Source: Pyropia yezoensis (Eukaryota > Rhodophyta > Bangiophyceae > Bangiales > Bangiaceae). From it: a stretch of DNA of 64,000 nucleotides. Below the pieces are notes generated by a model. It ran no database searches. It was not told the origin of the DNA and saw only the letters and a list, made by a program, of their open reading frames with translations. The DNA is taken from NCBI GenBank assembly GCA_009829735.1, contig CM020619.1, positions 30,220,063-30,284,062 of the forward strand. The letters are read 5' to 3'. Made by a program: the position numbers and the translations under genes. Position 1 is the stretch's first letter. Every line of letters begins with the position of its first letter. This document shows positions 53,239-64,000 of this stretch, one piece after another.

Positions 53239-55645
53239 AGGACAACCTCAAGATTAATTCTCGTACGCGTGTGGGGGATAGCCTCCCCCAAGCTGTTGCT
53301 CCGGTGATTGACACGGGAGCCGGACCAAGCGTCATCACTGAGAACCTGCTACCTCCGGGCTGGCGTCGACAAGCCTGAAGAGCCCCTACCAAGACCCAGA
53401 TTGTAGACGCCTCGAATCAAACTTTAAGACCGTTTGGCCGCCTCCCTGTCACCATCTCTGTCAACAATGAACCAATGCTTTTTCCATTTCTCATAGTCAA
53501 GACCCTCTCTGTAAGGATTTGCCCCTTAAATCGCCTCCCGGAACCCAGGGGATATGGACTGGGACCTCTCCTTACATGTCCGGCCCCGATAACTCCCCCC
53601 AAGACACATCAATTCCCCACTACCCTGGGCGACACCACGCTGTATCCCTGACATTTTGCAGACGTCGGCCGACCGCACGAAAGCCGCCGTCAACGCACTG
53701 TCGGAACCCTGTCATGGACGTCGAAACTCGACAACGAGGAGCGAGTGACATCGTCGACCAACCACGGGCGGACATCCCCGTCTGTGCTGCCTGAATTTTA
53801 TTCTCTGCGCTGCTTGAAAGCTGGCATCAAGGACCAGTCACATGATTCACCGACACTGAGGACACCGCACATCCTCGCTGGCGGCTGAGTGCGATATGAC
53901 TGGCTCGCCGGCTTTTGGATTGATTGATTTCGGCCAGCTGGTTGGTGACTGGCTGGCCGGTCAAGGGATTGATTGAATTTGGCCTTGCTGGCCCTTACAG
54001 CCAGTCGGACCTTCTGGCCGATCGGCGTGTGGAGCCGGCTGGTGGCGCGCGCTGGGCGCCATCCACGGGACCCCCTTCGTTTCGGGCAAACTGGGGCTGC
54101 ACTCCTTTAGTGCGCACGCCCGCCCATGCTTTGTTCTGAGAGACATGCTTTGTTTTTGGACCGTTCTGTGCCTACCGGCGGTGCGATGGGGAAACGCATG
54201 CTTTGGGGCACCTTGGGTGCCCCGACGCGAGTATATAGTGCGTGGGTGTCGGCGCCACCGGGGGAGACGAGAGGGGCAACCACAGACACAGACCAAAGAC
54301 ACTGTTTACCTTTTGTACCCTCGATCCCCACCGACGTCGCGCCCATCCTCTTCCCCAGACCCACCCCCGTCGAGACCACCGTCCTCTTCCCCGTGCCCCG
54401 CCGCCCCATTGGCTCGCAGGGCCCGCTGACACCCCCACGAGTACGTTGAGGGCTCCCCGGTTTTGGGTGGGTCCTTACACTCTCAGTCCCCCTCATTCTA
54501 TGCTGGGACTTCCAGAAGCAGCATGTCAAGAGTATCCTGCCAGGAGAAGGAAAGGTGCAGTTCAATCATGAGTTTGTGTCGCCGGTGCTGGAGAATCTGG
54601 ACACCAAGGTTCGTGTAATCAAGATCAAGAAGGATCGTATCCCGCCCTCTACCTTGACACTCTTCAAACCAGTGCTCCTTCCTCCTCGTTCGGAGACCAA
54701 GGTCCAAGTGACTACCCGTACAACGGGTCAACGCCTGATCTACGAACGCAAGGAATTTCTGGCAAAACACCGGCTATACTTGGCCAATGGGCATCACAGG
54801 AAGGCGGAAAGGCACACCCCATTCTCTGTGCTAATCGTCAACGTGAGCCGGAAGCCAATCACGCTCGCCAAGGGTACTCGATTTGGAACGGCAGAACCTT
54901 ACCGAGGCTCCGCCCGTGCCCTAAGCAAGGAGAATCTCTTGAACTTGCAACAAGAACTGGCATCCAACCTAATCGCCCTAGGCGTACCTCCGGACCAAGC
55001 ACAGGGTGTCGGCGTTGCCCCGAAGCCCGATAATGCACCACGCAGGATTCCGAATGTCAACCAAGAAAATGTTCCTCCTGACCTGAAGGAGGCTCTGGAG
55101 AAGCCTCTCCAGGAATATCGGCACCTGTGGTCTGGAGAGCTGGGCAACATGGACGCCACCCTAGACCGGATTCAACTCAAGCCGGATGCTAAGCCAGTAC
55201 ACCTGCAACCGTATCGGGCTAGACCACATCGCCGGGGTGAGATTGAGAAGCAGGTTAACAAGATGCTCAAGATGGATGTTATCGAGCCCTCAGATGGCGA
55301 GTGGGCCTTTCCGGTGGTGGTCGTCCCGAAACCTGGCGGTCACTTCCGTTTCTGCGTCGACTACGGGCGCCTGAACGAGATGAAGGACATGGATGTATAC
55401 ACGATACCCCGGATGGACGATTGCATCGACTTTCTCGGTGATGCTTCACTCTTTTCAACCCTGGATTGAAATGCCAGCTACTGGCAGATCCCTCTGGCCG
55501 ACGAGGACAAGGACAAAACCACCGTCACGTGCCATGTGGGGCTATTCCGGTGCAAGCGTCTCCCATTTGGCCTCACCAAAGGTCCGGCTTCCTTCCAGAG
55601 AGCGATTGACATCATCCTGTCGGGACTGAGATGGAGGACATGGTC
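53239..55645 (+). pseudogene. Ty3/gypsy protease-reverse transcriptase, interrupted and truncated
   Basis: A retropepsin active site, VIDTGAGPSVI, lies at 53,304-53,336, with a TGA shortly after it (about 53,377). After the 970-bp insertion (53,510-54,479) the same frame resumes with DFQKQHVKSILPGEG and runs into the reverse transcriptase: HLQPYRARPHRR, VVVVPKPGGHFRFCVDYGRL, then FSTLD with one catalytic Asp. A TGA at 55,467 follows, then YWQIPL and LPFGLTKGPASFQRAI. The sequence leaves the family pattern at about 55,645, before the YxDD box. RNase H and integrase are absent. This is a dead 5' fragment of a gypsy element. Confidence 0.8.
53510..54479. mobile_element. 970-bp solo LTR nested in the gypsy protease
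   Basis: The segment begins TGTAAGGA and ends TCCTTACA, an 8-bp perfect terminal inversion with TG...CA ends. It is flanked by CTCTC on both sides (53,505-53,509 and 54,480-54,484). A 5-bp duplication and TG...CA are the marks of LTR-retroelement integration. The segment has no coding capacity. A TATA-like GAGTATATAGTG sits at about 54,229. Insert plus duplication is 975 bp, a multiple of three, and the protease frame joins across it. Its LTR family is different from the 469-bp LTR at 49,741. Confidence 0.8.
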
Positions 55646-56671: not shown

Positions 56672-57121
56672 AAGTGATTTCAAGCTGTGACGAAAGGAAA
56701 GTAGGACTTGCATACCGAGAACCAATATATGGCCTCGTTCTAGTCTCCTCGTTAGTCCGTGTTGGGTGGGTATGCCCTAAGTGATGCTCGCCGATAGAGG
56801 AAAGAGAACGCGAAACAAAATTTCAGTCCATGAGAGCGAGCCCACTCTCCTCCGTCCAACAGTCTGCTCTTGAAGACGGGGTGAAATACGGTTTTTTGAC
56901 CTCTGCCGTACGGATCAGAGAAGAAGGTCGCCCCTAAAATCCCACACTAAAGGAAGGAAGGAAAAGTCGTCTAAGACACGGGGACCTGATGAGGTGCTAC
57001 GCACCGGCGGGAAATGGTTTCTTATAGAAACCCCTCCTGGAGAGCAGACTCAAATCATTGATAATGTCACGCGCGCTCCCCCGCGCAAGGCAGTGGATCC
57101 TAAATGGGAACGGGCTCGCCT

Positions 57122-57624
57122 AGTTTAAACACTTTTATACTCATGAAACTGCTAATGGCTCACTGGACAGTGATAGTTCCTTTGGCAACAACACTACTTG
57201 GATGAACGAAGTAAGTCTAGAGCTACTACATGCCTCGACGCCCGACCTACGAAAGGTAGTACTTATTGCATAAAATCATCTTGCTCTTTTCTGAGCGCTT
57301 TGAGATGATTCACAATACCTTGTCTGATTGCATCGCCTCGTGTTGTCCACTTCTCTTTCGAATATCTGCCCTTTCAGCTTTCGATGGTAGAGTATTGGTC
57401 CACCATGGTGTCGACGGGTAACGGGGAATTAGGCTTTGATTCCGGACAGGGGGCCTAAGAATCGGCTATTACATCCAATGAAGGCAGCAGGCGCGCTCAT
57501 TATCCGATCCTTCATTGAGGAGGTAGTGACAAAACATAACCATAGGTTCCCCATTAAGTATTCTAATTGGAATGATAACAATTTAAATTCCCCCTCTACG
57601 ATCCATTGGAGGGCAAGTCTGGTG
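57122..57624 (+). rRNA. Degenerate 5' fragment of eukaryotic SSU (18S) rRNA
   Basis: Recognisable SSU blocks in order are AAACACTTTTATAC, GAAACTGCTAATGGCTCA, TAGTTCCTTTGG, TCTAGAGCTACTACATGC, TTTCGAATATCTGCCCTTTC, CGACGGGTAACGGGGAATTA, GGCAGCAGGCGCGC, GGAGGTAGTGACAA and CATTGGAGGGCAAGTCTGG. The order and spacing follow the 5' third of 18S rRNA. Highly conserved positions are changed, for example CCTAAGAATCGGC where eukaryotes have CCTGAGAAACGGC. Similarity stops just before the universal 530 loop, and the first about 60 bases of a normal 18S are also missing. I regard it as a pseudogene or relic. A strongly diverged rRNA from another organism is the alternative. Confidence 0.75.
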
Positions 57625-59946
57625 AACGTGTGCATGAATGCCCACGTTCTAAAAAAAAAGCCAGATGCCTCTCTCAGGAAGCGGTCCATGTAACGGTTTG
57701 TTGCTTTTGCATGACTTGTGAAAGGTGGGAAGGCAAACGACGGGAATAGCCGGTTTGGAACAATAATGCACCCCAGAGCCTCCATCGTACATTTGCAAAT
57801 TGCCGGGGGAGAGCCCGTCGGGCCTTGGCTACCGCGGTCCGCCGAGACGTGAGAAGGAGAAATCGTTCTGGACGCAGCAGTGTACGTGATGGTGCACGTA
57901 AGGTAAGAACGTCAAAGAGAGTGTTACTCCGCGGGGAAGCGCTCGGGCAAAAGTCCTGCACAGCGTTCAGAAGTACAAAAAAAAAAGGGTCCCATGAAAA
58001 CTCTAAATGAGAGAAGACCTCACAAGATGTGTACAGCCGCAATTTCATGTTTACAAAACATAAGCCAATAGGCGATCAAGAGTTTTCGTGCTTTTTATCG
58101 GAGTTCCGCTCTGACCTGCGCATGACAGTTCTCGGGCTTTACCGTCGTTCTGAGCCACCCAGTTAACTGTTAGGATGGCATTAAATGTCAAAGTATATTT
58201 GTGATGCACTGTCCTCAAATGCTTGAGGGCATTAAGCAAGAAGTGCGCCCACTTATTTCTCCAATGCCAGAAGAGTACAAATTCGCTTGGATGTACTGCG
58301 CTTTAATTCAGCGCAGGCTTGTGCGAGTGCACACACCTTGGGGCAGCATCCCCGTGCTTTATTCACGGCTGCATACAATTGGCTCATGGACGGTCCAATG
58401 ACAGTTCAGTTCACTCAATGACCGCAGACGTGCAGATTTGATACACGTGGCAAAGTTTGATACTTTTTAGCAGGCGCGCTTCACACCCTGTTTGTAGTTA
58501 TCGAGTGCTTGGATCTTTGATTATTATTGTGTCTGCTCTCGCAACTACCATGCGTAGCATGCTATAACAGGCTAGCGCGCAACCGAGAGGCGTCGCGGCA
58601 CCGCTCCAGGTGTACAAGGTCGGTCGGTTGCACATCTTTGCCTCTCACTCTTTGAGACATGGTCAAGATGTCCTGCGGTGAAGCAGCCGCCCGGCTTCAG
58701 CAATCCCTGTGAAGATCGGTGCCCTCAGCGACAGATAGCTGAAGGCTTCCCGTTGCACCCGGAGCGAAGGAATGGAGCAACAGAGATGATTACTCATGTA
58801 TCAGTGGTAAGACTGAACGAAGGGAACAACTCATGCTGAGCTGCATCAGAAGCGCCATGAGCTCTTTCAGTTTGTGCGAGTCTTTTTTATGAATTAGTTA
58901 GAGCTCTTCTCTTCTCTCTCTCTCTATTCTTCCTCCGCACTGAGCGTGAGTGAAGGATCCTTCTGTCGGGCAAGACGGATGAAAAGAAACTAATCGACGT
59001 CAGCCATCTCAGATTTATCACATCCGGTCGGGCGAAGCGAGCCACTGGCGGCTCGTCCCCCCACTGCCGAATCTGGATCCTACCAACTGGCGGAGAGCAG
59101 TCGACTTCATCCGATGGCGTAAGCCGTGTGACCACTTTCCGAGTTTGATTGCCTCTTGAGGTGGTACTTGGCTATTTTCTTGTACACTTGTTGTCAAATA
59201 ACTGCTCGTCGTAGCCCTTCGGAGAACGCCCTTCCACCCAATCGCATTCAACGGGCGATCAACCGTGACGCTCAGAGCATAACTAAGCGGACGGCCGCAA
59301 GGGAGGGCTGGCAACAGTGTACACAAGAGTTTTAATCGAGACCACGGCGTGGCTTGAGGACAGTCTGGTGCGGCCGGCAGCAACCACGGCCTGACCGGAT
59401 CGTCGGCGTGCGTTTTAGCACACAAGAGAAATAGTTCTTCTCTGAACGTGGAAGGTGAGGCACATGGTACGCCTGTCGCGAGGCTATCGTCAGACAACGC
59501 GGATGCGAATGTGGACGTCTAACATGGTATTCAGAAAATTGCCACGCAGTACGCCGCAGACTCCAGATCGCCTCCCAGTGTGCCTTGAAAAAGAGGAATG
59601 GTCTCGGTGATAGTTACGCCCCACTTTTTTCAGGAAGGGGAGAATACAAACCACCAGTCTTGATTTTCAATATACAAGGAGCTATCGTCGGTCGGGTAGA
59701 TCGACTCGAATAATACGCAATAATTCTGAAGGCCCAGTGTTGCTCCCGACTAGGTTTGTGCAACACGCCTAATTCTCGAAGGCGCATGGGCAGATGACGC
59801 CCGACAGCACGCCGGGGCACGCCCCACAAATTTCAACACACCTAACATGCCCAAGTACAATTCGCCGCAGTATTCAAATGTTTCTGCCGAATATCGTTCC
59901 CGCAATAAATGTGGGCAGAACCGCAATGCGACACAATGAGGCACCG
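57625..59946. other. AT-richer stretch without recognisable genes
   Basis: No ORF longer than about 160 codons with a credible pattern is seen, and no further rRNA blocks. A (CT)n run lies at 58,905-58,926. Composition is near balanced, in contrast to most of the window. Confidence 0.4.
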
Positions 59947-62364: not shown

Positions 62365-64000
62365 ATGAATACTGCTGCGGCTGCACCCTCGCCGAGTCAG
62401 TACTGTCTGCCTCCGGCACGGGACGACGTCGCGTGGCGGGATCTGATGCGGCCTTGTGGGGGGATCTTGCAGCTGGTCCAGAGCCCAGTCAAGGTCCCGA
62501 TCGGGCGTGTCCGCACGATCAGGCTCGAACTGGTGCGGGTATGGGTGTATTGCGGCTTGCACTACGTGCGGGCGCCGGTGGACACCACAGCCTGCACGCC
62601 GCCAGTCCCTGAGGACCTGCCGCCGTTGGACCAGCCCAACACGAACTTTTCCTTCGTCCCCCTCAAGCGGGACAAGCCGTTTTCGCGTCCGTCATTTTCT
62701 GTTCACATTTTTTGCGCCCCCGCGGGCAGAGATATCCGTGGAATTGATGGGCGGTGGGTGCTGGAACTCACCGCGCCAGTACACAGCGCTTCCCCGCTGC
62801 GGTTTTGTGCTGGGTCAAGGGAGCAAGCGGAGCAGTGGGAGCGGCAGCTGCGTATGCGCGCGGCCCCGCTGACGGTCGTCTGGTCCTGCCATGTGGGGAT
62901 GCCTGTTGAAGGGAACACCAGTGGCGATGGCGTGGTGAGAGCCGAAGTGGTTGGACCGAGCAGCCTGGCCGCATTGAGTGCTATGCACCGCGCCGCACGT
63001 CATGTGCTCAGCGATGATGTTCTGGTGGGCGTGGCGGGCATGGCGACGGCATTTTCGTCGGAGGCGGTACACAGGCTTGCCGTTGGCGCTGGGCCTGTGG
63101 TGGGGATGGCATTTGCTGGGCTGGGATTTTTTCTGCGCGTTCTCGTGGCTGTGCAGTCGACGTCAGGAGCTGCACTCAGCGTGGCGGAAGAACTGAACAA
63201 CCTGCGCGGCATGCTATGGAACGACCTTCTTCCGGCCCTTCGAGATTTGCCGGACGATGGGAGCGTGGACGTGAACGGCCTGATGAACCGGCTGGGTGAT
63301 CTGATGGCGGACGCGGAGGTGATCTCTGGGCAGCTGCATCATCTGGTGCGGTCACGTTCGGCGCGGCTGCGGACGGCCGTTTCATCTGCCCTTCACGTCC
63401 AGGAGGTGGAGCCCGTTTTAAGGGACCAACTCTTGGACTGTCGGCGCCGTGCCGACGAAGTTTGGCGGCTCTGTCAGCTAGCCCTTGGTCGTCATGGCAT
63501 CAGCGTCGCTCACAAGACGCAGCAGACCGTCATTGCTGCCGCTGAGCAGACGCAGCAGGTGATCATTGAATCTCGGGAGCAGATCCATAATGTGGTGAAC
63601 TCATCTACGGAGGTGATGCGACAGGACTTCACACGGATTGCTGAGCGGGTGCGGCGCAATGACAGGGCGGCTGCGCCTCACTCGATCGCGCACGATGCTG
63701 CACAGGAACTCCCTCTCCTTCCTCCCAACGTCTACATTAACTGGGAGGACCAGACACAAGCTGCATCGCGGCTGTACTCAGCCGTAATTAAGGCGGACTC
63801 GACTGCATGCGCGGCGCTTGGGGTGCGCGGGATGGGAGGGGTGGGGAAGACGCTTTCTTGCCTGCTCGTCGCGCACCGAATCGCTCATCAGGCGGATGGT
63901 CAGAGTCGGTTCCCTGACAGCGTCCACTGGGTGCAGCTATCTTCGGAGGTTGGCCCTGCTGATGTGACGCAACGGGTGTGCGATCTGGCGACGGGCCTGT
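62365..64000 (+). CDS. STAND/NLR-like protein: PH-like domain, helical region, NB-ARC (partial)
   Basis: From ATG 62,365 (in-frame stop TAA upstream at about 62,272) 545 codons stay open to the window end. Residues about 35-163 look like a PH domain: alternating strands, RWVLELTAP, then LRFCAGSREQAEQWERQL with the usual C-terminal helix and invariant Trp (residue 158). Residues about 220-264 are a Gly/Ala-rich hydrophobic helical stretch (GAGPVVGMAFAGLGFFLRVL), followed by helices that could form a bundle of the MLKL/HeLo kind; this is inference. Residues 386-434 are a long amphipathic, probably coiled-coil helix. At 489-496 stands GMGGVGKT, the NB-ARC Walker A, followed by SVHWVQLSSE, the second strand. 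STAND ATPases act as ligand-gated immune or cell-death switches. Sensor repeats, if any, lie beyond the window. No intron is needed. Confidence 0.8.
   Translation, partial: MNTAAAAPSPSQYCLPPARDDVAWRDLMRPCGGILQLVQSPVKVPIGRVRTIRLELVRVWVYCGLHYVRAPVDTTACTPPVPEDLPPLDQPNTNFSFVPLKRDKPFSRPSFSVHIFCAPAGRDIRGIDGRWVLELTAPVHSASPLRFCAGSREQAEQWERQLRMRAAPLTVVWSCHVGMPVEGNTSGDGVVRAEVVGPSSLAALSAMHRAARHVLSDDVLVGVAGMATAFSSEAVHRLAVGAGPVVGMAFAGLGFFLRVLVAVQSTSGAALSVAEELNNLRGMLWNDLLPALRDLPDDGSVDVNGLMNRLGDLMADAEVISGQLHHLVRSRSARLRTAVSSALHVQEVEPVLRDQLLDCRRRADEVWRLCQLALGRHGISVAHKTQQTVIAAAEQTQQVIIESREQIHNVVNSSTEVMRQDFTRIAERVRRNDRAAAPHSIAHDAAQELPLLPPNVYINWEDQTQAASRLYSAVIKADSTACAALGVRGMGGVGKTLSCLLVAHRIAHQADGQSRFPDSVHWVQLSSEVGPADVTQRVCDLATGL

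Follow-up and report, generated by a model that had tools for sequence, protein, structure and literature searches.

A predicted PH-fold and helical N-terminus on an NB-ARC-WD40 receptor gene of Pyropia yezoensis, and candidate sensor diversification in its sister genes

The edge of the stretch of Pyropia yezoensis DNA analysed here (64,000 nucleotides, C2:30220063-30284062, hereafter the window) falls inside an intact receptor gene, and raises the question of what kind of receptor this gene encodes and what its N-terminus may do. From the ATG at 62365 the frame is listed as open through 545 codons to the window end, and in the genome beyond a stop follows only after 1,730 amino acids, in a single frame for which an intron is unnecessary (Table 1). 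In this GC-rich DNA the opposite strand also carries long open frames, which would fit a chance ORF, but a chance ORF, pseudogene or misassembly is hardly credible for a frame of this length in which recognised domains follow in order and for which a second, near-identical sequence exists. The latter, P0002, is a database sequence of unstated origin, collinear with the window gene along 1,730 residues of which 20 are substituted, and the frame is therefore not an accident of one assembly. Elsewhere, the window holds a stand-alone piece from the 5′ part of a eukaryotic SSU rRNA gene (57098-57652, plus strand; model positions 34-594 of 1831), its only Rfam match at the gathering threshold, and an ORF (54555-55469, plus strand) whose translation resembles, by eye, the beginning of the reverse transcriptase of a gypsy-type LTR retrotransposon.

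Table 1. Features of the window gene; positions are those of the window unless marked as genome.
Feature	Position	Strand	Basis or remark
Window gene, 5′ part (residues 1-545 of 1,730)	62365..64000	+	single-frame STAND receptor gene
Window gene, last residue	genome C2:30287616		locus L021:1428-6617
PH-fold domain, residues 28-170	62446..62874	+	predicted; 7 strands and a C-terminal helix (152-166) that includes AEQWERQL
Helical module, residues 200-343	62962..63393	+	predicted structure; packing uncertain
Hydrophobic helix, residues 243-263	63091..63153	+	mean Kyte-Doolittle 1.92
Long predicted helix, residues 348-434	63406..63666	+	structure model, paralog alignment
NB-ARC start (Pfam match residues 478-676)	63796..64000	+	Pfam
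Walker A / P-loop GMGGVGKT, residues 489-496	63829..63852	+	sequence, paralog alignment, shuffle test

The protein belongs to the STAND/AP-ATPases, as a first-pass annotation of the window had proposed from GMGGVGKT and VHWVQLSS, both of which are present. Its NB-ARC domain scores 84.7 bits against a Pfam cut-off of 23.5, and the degenerate DNA pattern for the P-loop has one match against a mean expectation of 0.00 in 100 shuffles. Past the window end, where that annotation had suggested looking for a winged helix and sensor repeats, Pfam recognises an APAF-1-like_WHD at residues 730-795 (6.5e-07, 29.9 bits against a cut-off of 27, with residues 678-990 searched alone) and WD40 repeats in 12 stretches (E 4e-84). 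The GxGGxGKT, DD and HD motifs are invariant across 14 aligned proteins (G489, G491, G492, G494, K495, T496, D576, D577, H788 and D789), so that Walker A, Walker B and a winged helix with the HD of the MHD motif accompany the NB-ARC domain. Twelve consecutive blades of 46-47 residues each span residues 1077-1638, giving a predicted WD40 part of at least twelve blades, enough for two propellers. The chain thus has the tripartite layout of an NLR, with an N-terminal module, a nucleotide-binding oligomerisation domain and a repeat sensor.

The N-terminal module begins with a predicted PH fold. The structure model shows a sandwich of seven strands with a C-terminal helix as its cap, and the AEQWERQL sequence that the first-pass annotation had assigned to this helix occupies residues 155-162; together with the fold matches, the model supports that assignment. 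It is the best of five models, built from 17 sequences, with a mean pLDDT of 74.7 (57.3-62.9 in the others). No Pfam PH profile matches residues 1-473 up to E 10, nor any of 10 family members up to E 5, in searches whose HMMER filters drop most weak matches; across residues 1-473 nothing in Pfam is better than E 0.13, and no enzymatic effector domain was found there. PH-like folds often bind proteins, and PTB and FERM F3 domains are among the fold matches of this region. The β1-β2 region is basic, with five K/R against one D/E in the window gene and K+R exceeding D+E in 10/10 N-termini (the window gene and nine paralogs), and would suit a lipid headgroup.

Behind the PH fold lies the Gly/Ala-rich hydrophobic segment that had been pointed out earlier, and a stretch equivalent to the hydrophobic helix at residues 243-263 (Kyte-Doolittle 1.51-2.12) occurs in all ten of these N-termini. 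The suggestion of a membrane-acting helical bundle in this region holds in so far as the region is predicted to be helical and the hydrophobic helix is conserved; the bundle and its membrane action are putative, residues 196-400 modelled alone giving low-confidence packing (pLDDT 71.5, pTM 0.39) and the helical module having no convincing fold match in the PDB. No MLKL, HeLo or RPW8 four-helix entry is among the matches listed, and NACHT_N matches weakly (E 0.29) in one of ten family members. The second half of the long helix that follows is an insert missing from most aligned paralogs. Of the two outcomes named in advance as fatal to the proposed architecture, a structure prediction with neither PH fold nor helical bundle and a P-loop followed by no STAND domain, neither occurred in full: the predicted PH fold is present, and STAND domains follow the P-loop.

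These N-terminal features bear on whether the protein acts at membranes or as an adaptor. An adaptor or scaffold would bind a protein through its PH-like fold, and its helical stretch would serve as a coiled-coil hub for bringing in a downstream enzyme, the part played in Apaf-1 by the CARD, with no membrane insertion; the PTB and FERM F3 relatives, the modelling of residues 348-434 as a single long helix and the unmatched helical module all speak for it. This remains a possible but rather unlikely reading, against which stand the transmembrane-grade helix in every N-terminus compared, the basic β1-β2 region and the want of a known partner.

The N-terminus marks out one family among the NB-ARC genes of the 107.5 Mb genome, which number at least 32 places. 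It matches 20 places, equal to 18 loci (two of them in two pieces each), and 17 of the 18 are the 17 best-scoring NB-ARC loci, the remaining one having no NB-ARC match; at L048 the N-terminal match does not start until residue 77. Twelve of the 17 hold the N-terminal match and NB-ARC in a single open frame, and five (L050, L055, L056, L057 and L058) are interrupted. In the same genome search the window-gene N-terminus found none of the remaining 15 NB-ARC loci. A common N-terminus with the NB-ARC paralogs L018, L019 and L020, alike by eye, was rejected at an hhalign probability of 1.7%. L018 and L020 (C1:40106024 and C1:34478786) have C-terminal repeats that look TPR-like by eye and alike among themselves, and their N-terminus does not align to that of the window family. 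At the reference locus of L056 the N-terminal part is interrupted; P0029, a database protein whose residues 417-600 are identical to it, runs through the N-terminus without interruption and carries few blades, and the low blade number may reflect short-read collapse.

Among database proteins, P0010 and P0011 of P. yezoensis show no difference from L023 and L051 in the 600 residues compared, and relatives outside the genome comprise Porphyra umbilicalis P0007 and P0009, entries from transcriptomes or metagenomes, and others with no species given. In protein searches, each limited to scoring the 8,000 candidates with the most words in common, high-coverage matches came only from sequences named Pyropia or Porphyra or bearing no species name; further matches, covering 12-35% of the query in one search and 13-20% in another, presumably represent the NB-ARC or WD40 part. 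Across 13 relatives the PH, helical and NB-ARC parts diverge in step, the NB-ARC part most slowly. A prokaryotic origin of the N-terminus was considered and set aside, as a genome-contig scan with one usable peptide pattern gave four pattern matches, none of them confirmed.

The best lead comes from the sensors of the sister genes. Eighteen genes were read and 11 scored, namely those with at least four blades of one length by the boundary rule, on those blades only (L045, L048, L049, L050, L054, L058 and L059 were left unscored). Mean blade DNA identity is 0.90-0.95 in six genes, L022 (12 blades), L023 (12), L046 (7), L053 (12), L055 (4) and L056 (12), 0.865 in L047, and 0.64-0.67 in four, the window gene included. 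At the amino acid level it is 0.855-0.923 in L022, L023, L046, L053 and L055, 0.844 in L056 and 0.815 in L047; high internal conservation (HIC) of WD40 repeats has been defined as blade identity over 85% over at least 100 amino acids (PMC4986451). L055 and L056 combine high-identity blades with interrupted genes.

Strong positive selection has been reported for four blade codons of the fungal genes het-d and het-e: codons 7 and 9, on either side of conserved position 8, and codons 25 and 27, on either side of conserved position 26 (PMC1805685). In the algal blades they were equated with the neighbours of two conserved residues, the V that follows GH and the D within SxDxT; the choice of V and D is our own step, and a six-position set had first been chosen by eye. 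At the four positions pN (nonsynonymous differences per site) is 0.30-0.50 in the six sister genes, against 0.007-0.043 at the remaining blade positions and a whole-blade pS (the synonymous counterpart) of 0.036-0.148, all of these being pairwise counts on related repeats and not a likelihood test of selection. Because pS at the same four positions is 0.042-0.316, the site-matched comparison is weaker, with pN/pS of about 9 in L023, 5 in L046, 2.4 in L056 and 1.3-1.5 in L022, L053 and L055. Mean amino acid difference at these positions exceeds that of random position sets in six of six genes (P 0.0006 or lower); other positions also vary, for example 24 in L023, and 29 and 44 in L022. Synonymous divergence among the blades of L023 is 0.035, against 0.111 when the N-terminal part of L023 is compared with that of L022, as would be expected had the blades been homogenised after gene duplication; among L022 blades it is 0.148, which does not indicate homogenisation after duplication there. 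Judged from these repeats, several sisters look as if they were diversifying a sensor in the manner of fungal self/non-self receptors.

The window gene itself stands apart, with a complete architecture and diverged blades: mean blade DNA identity is 0.673 and mean amino acid identity 0.553 among 10 blades, below the HIC threshold. Its blades vary more at the four published sites (P 0.0046), a signal set aside on comparison with other WD40 proteins; 11 were tried, 8 were excluded for too few equal-length blades, and all three scorable ones vary more there too (P 0.003-0.038). Because all the scorable WD40 proteins share this excess, the apparent diversification is credited to the family's sister genes and not to the window gene. 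Diverged blades, as in an old stable array, are what a conserved, non-adaptive Apaf-1-like regulator of development, stress or life-cycle cell death would have, and the APAF-1-like winged helix and the nearly identical P0002 fit such a regulator as well. It is nonetheless improbable for a member of a 17-locus NB-ARC family that shows broken genes and, in sisters, sensor-face diversification, in a species with three NB-ARC+WD40 transcripts, not tied to particular loci, that reportedly increase 1.5-2.2 fold during Pythium red rot (PMC6928737).

We favour, with moderate confidence, an NLR-like STAND receptor of Apaf-1 type that would use PH membrane targeting and a hydrophobic helix in a local defence or death response. 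In the Apaf-1/NLR scheme, a sensor holds the ADP state, ligand releases it, ATP drives oligomerisation and the N-terminus signals. At rest the WD40 part would be folded back on ADP-bound NB-ARC; a ligand on the blade surface, likely a pathogen or non-self protein, would free it, and ATP exchange would drive a wheel-like oligomer. The ring may then present clustered PH domains to a phosphoinositide membrane, where the hydrophobic helix of the next module could insert or gather partners, with local defence or death as the putative outcome. The NB-ARC, winged-helix and WD40 scores, the invariant nucleotide-binding and HD motifs, the predicted PH fold, the basic β1-β2 region, the conserved hydrophobic helix and the absence of a Pfam enzymatic effector in residues 1-473 argue for this receptor, and an expanded family with broken members and apparent propeller-face diversification in sisters would suit it; the lack of a Pfam PH match, the PTB and FERM F3 relatives, the unrecognised helical fold and the non-homogenised blades of the gene itself argue against. 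A defence role would fit the infection-responsive transcripts (PMC6928737) and the two families of NB-ARC proteins reported for Porphyra (PMC8307928), which are not mapped to the window gene.

More speculatively, and with considerable doubt, Bangiales may run self-contained membrane-executing receptors in which the PH domain delivers the oligomer, the hydrophobic-helix module makes the lesion and homogenised WD40 blades diversify at het-d/het-e-like codons; if so, red algae reached hypervariable-propeller recognition independently of fungi. Should the sister-gene pattern hold in populations, a recognition strategy known from fungi would have arisen a second time, independently. For the question of how a cultivated seaweed detects oomycetes or non-self, a receptor family with an unrecognised front end is now defined, with predictions at the N-terminus (lipid binding, membrane damage) and at the C-terminus (ligand specificity set by a few blade codons).

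Several known systems share parts of this design. The window gene resembles Apaf-1 in its NB-ARC domain, APAF-1-like winged helix and WD40 part large enough for two propellers, and differs in carrying a predicted PH and helical N-terminus in place of the CARD, for which Pfam gave no match in residues 1-473. HET-D and HET-E (HNWD) share the STAND core and WD40 repeats, and the six sister genes share with them near-identical blades whose variable codons flank two conserved positions (7, 9, 25 and 27 in PMC1805685). The window gene differs from them in its NB-ARC core, in blades that are not internally conserved and in having no Pfam HET match in residues 1-473; NB-ARC stands far above its cut-off among the best 25 of 41 families listed, below which a weaker NACHT match could lie. 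High-identity WD40 arrays are reported from fungal NLRs, prokaryotes, fungi and protists (PMC4986451, PMC5587647), so that such an array alone is not new; its combination with a red-algal NLR was not found in a literature search that left most subscription papers out of reach. HeLo-MLKL-RPW8 and Goodbye-like bundles of fungi, animals and plants likewise place a helical region before the nucleotide-binding domain, whereas the module here has no significant sequence or fold match and is preceded by a PH fold.

The closest systems are red-algal. NB-ARC+WD40 genes of P. yezoensis are in print, NBS+WD40 is mentioned for Porphyra umbilicalis, and Pyropia and Porphyra are said to lack NBS-LRR receptors (PMC6928737); an NB-ARC/WH-like/APAF1_C/WD40 arrangement is described for red algae (PMC8891106), and Chondrus crispus is credited with 58 NB-WD40 genes, 23 of whose 58 proteins are said to include TIR (PMC7145615). 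The earlier suggestion of an undescribed architecture thus fails for the NB-ARC-winged helix-WD40 core, which the window gene has in common with these proteins, and may hold for the PH-helical N-terminus, which was not found in print, the passages compared naming neither a PH-like nor a helical N-terminus. The architecture is a new variant on the known red-algal NB-ARC-WD40 core.
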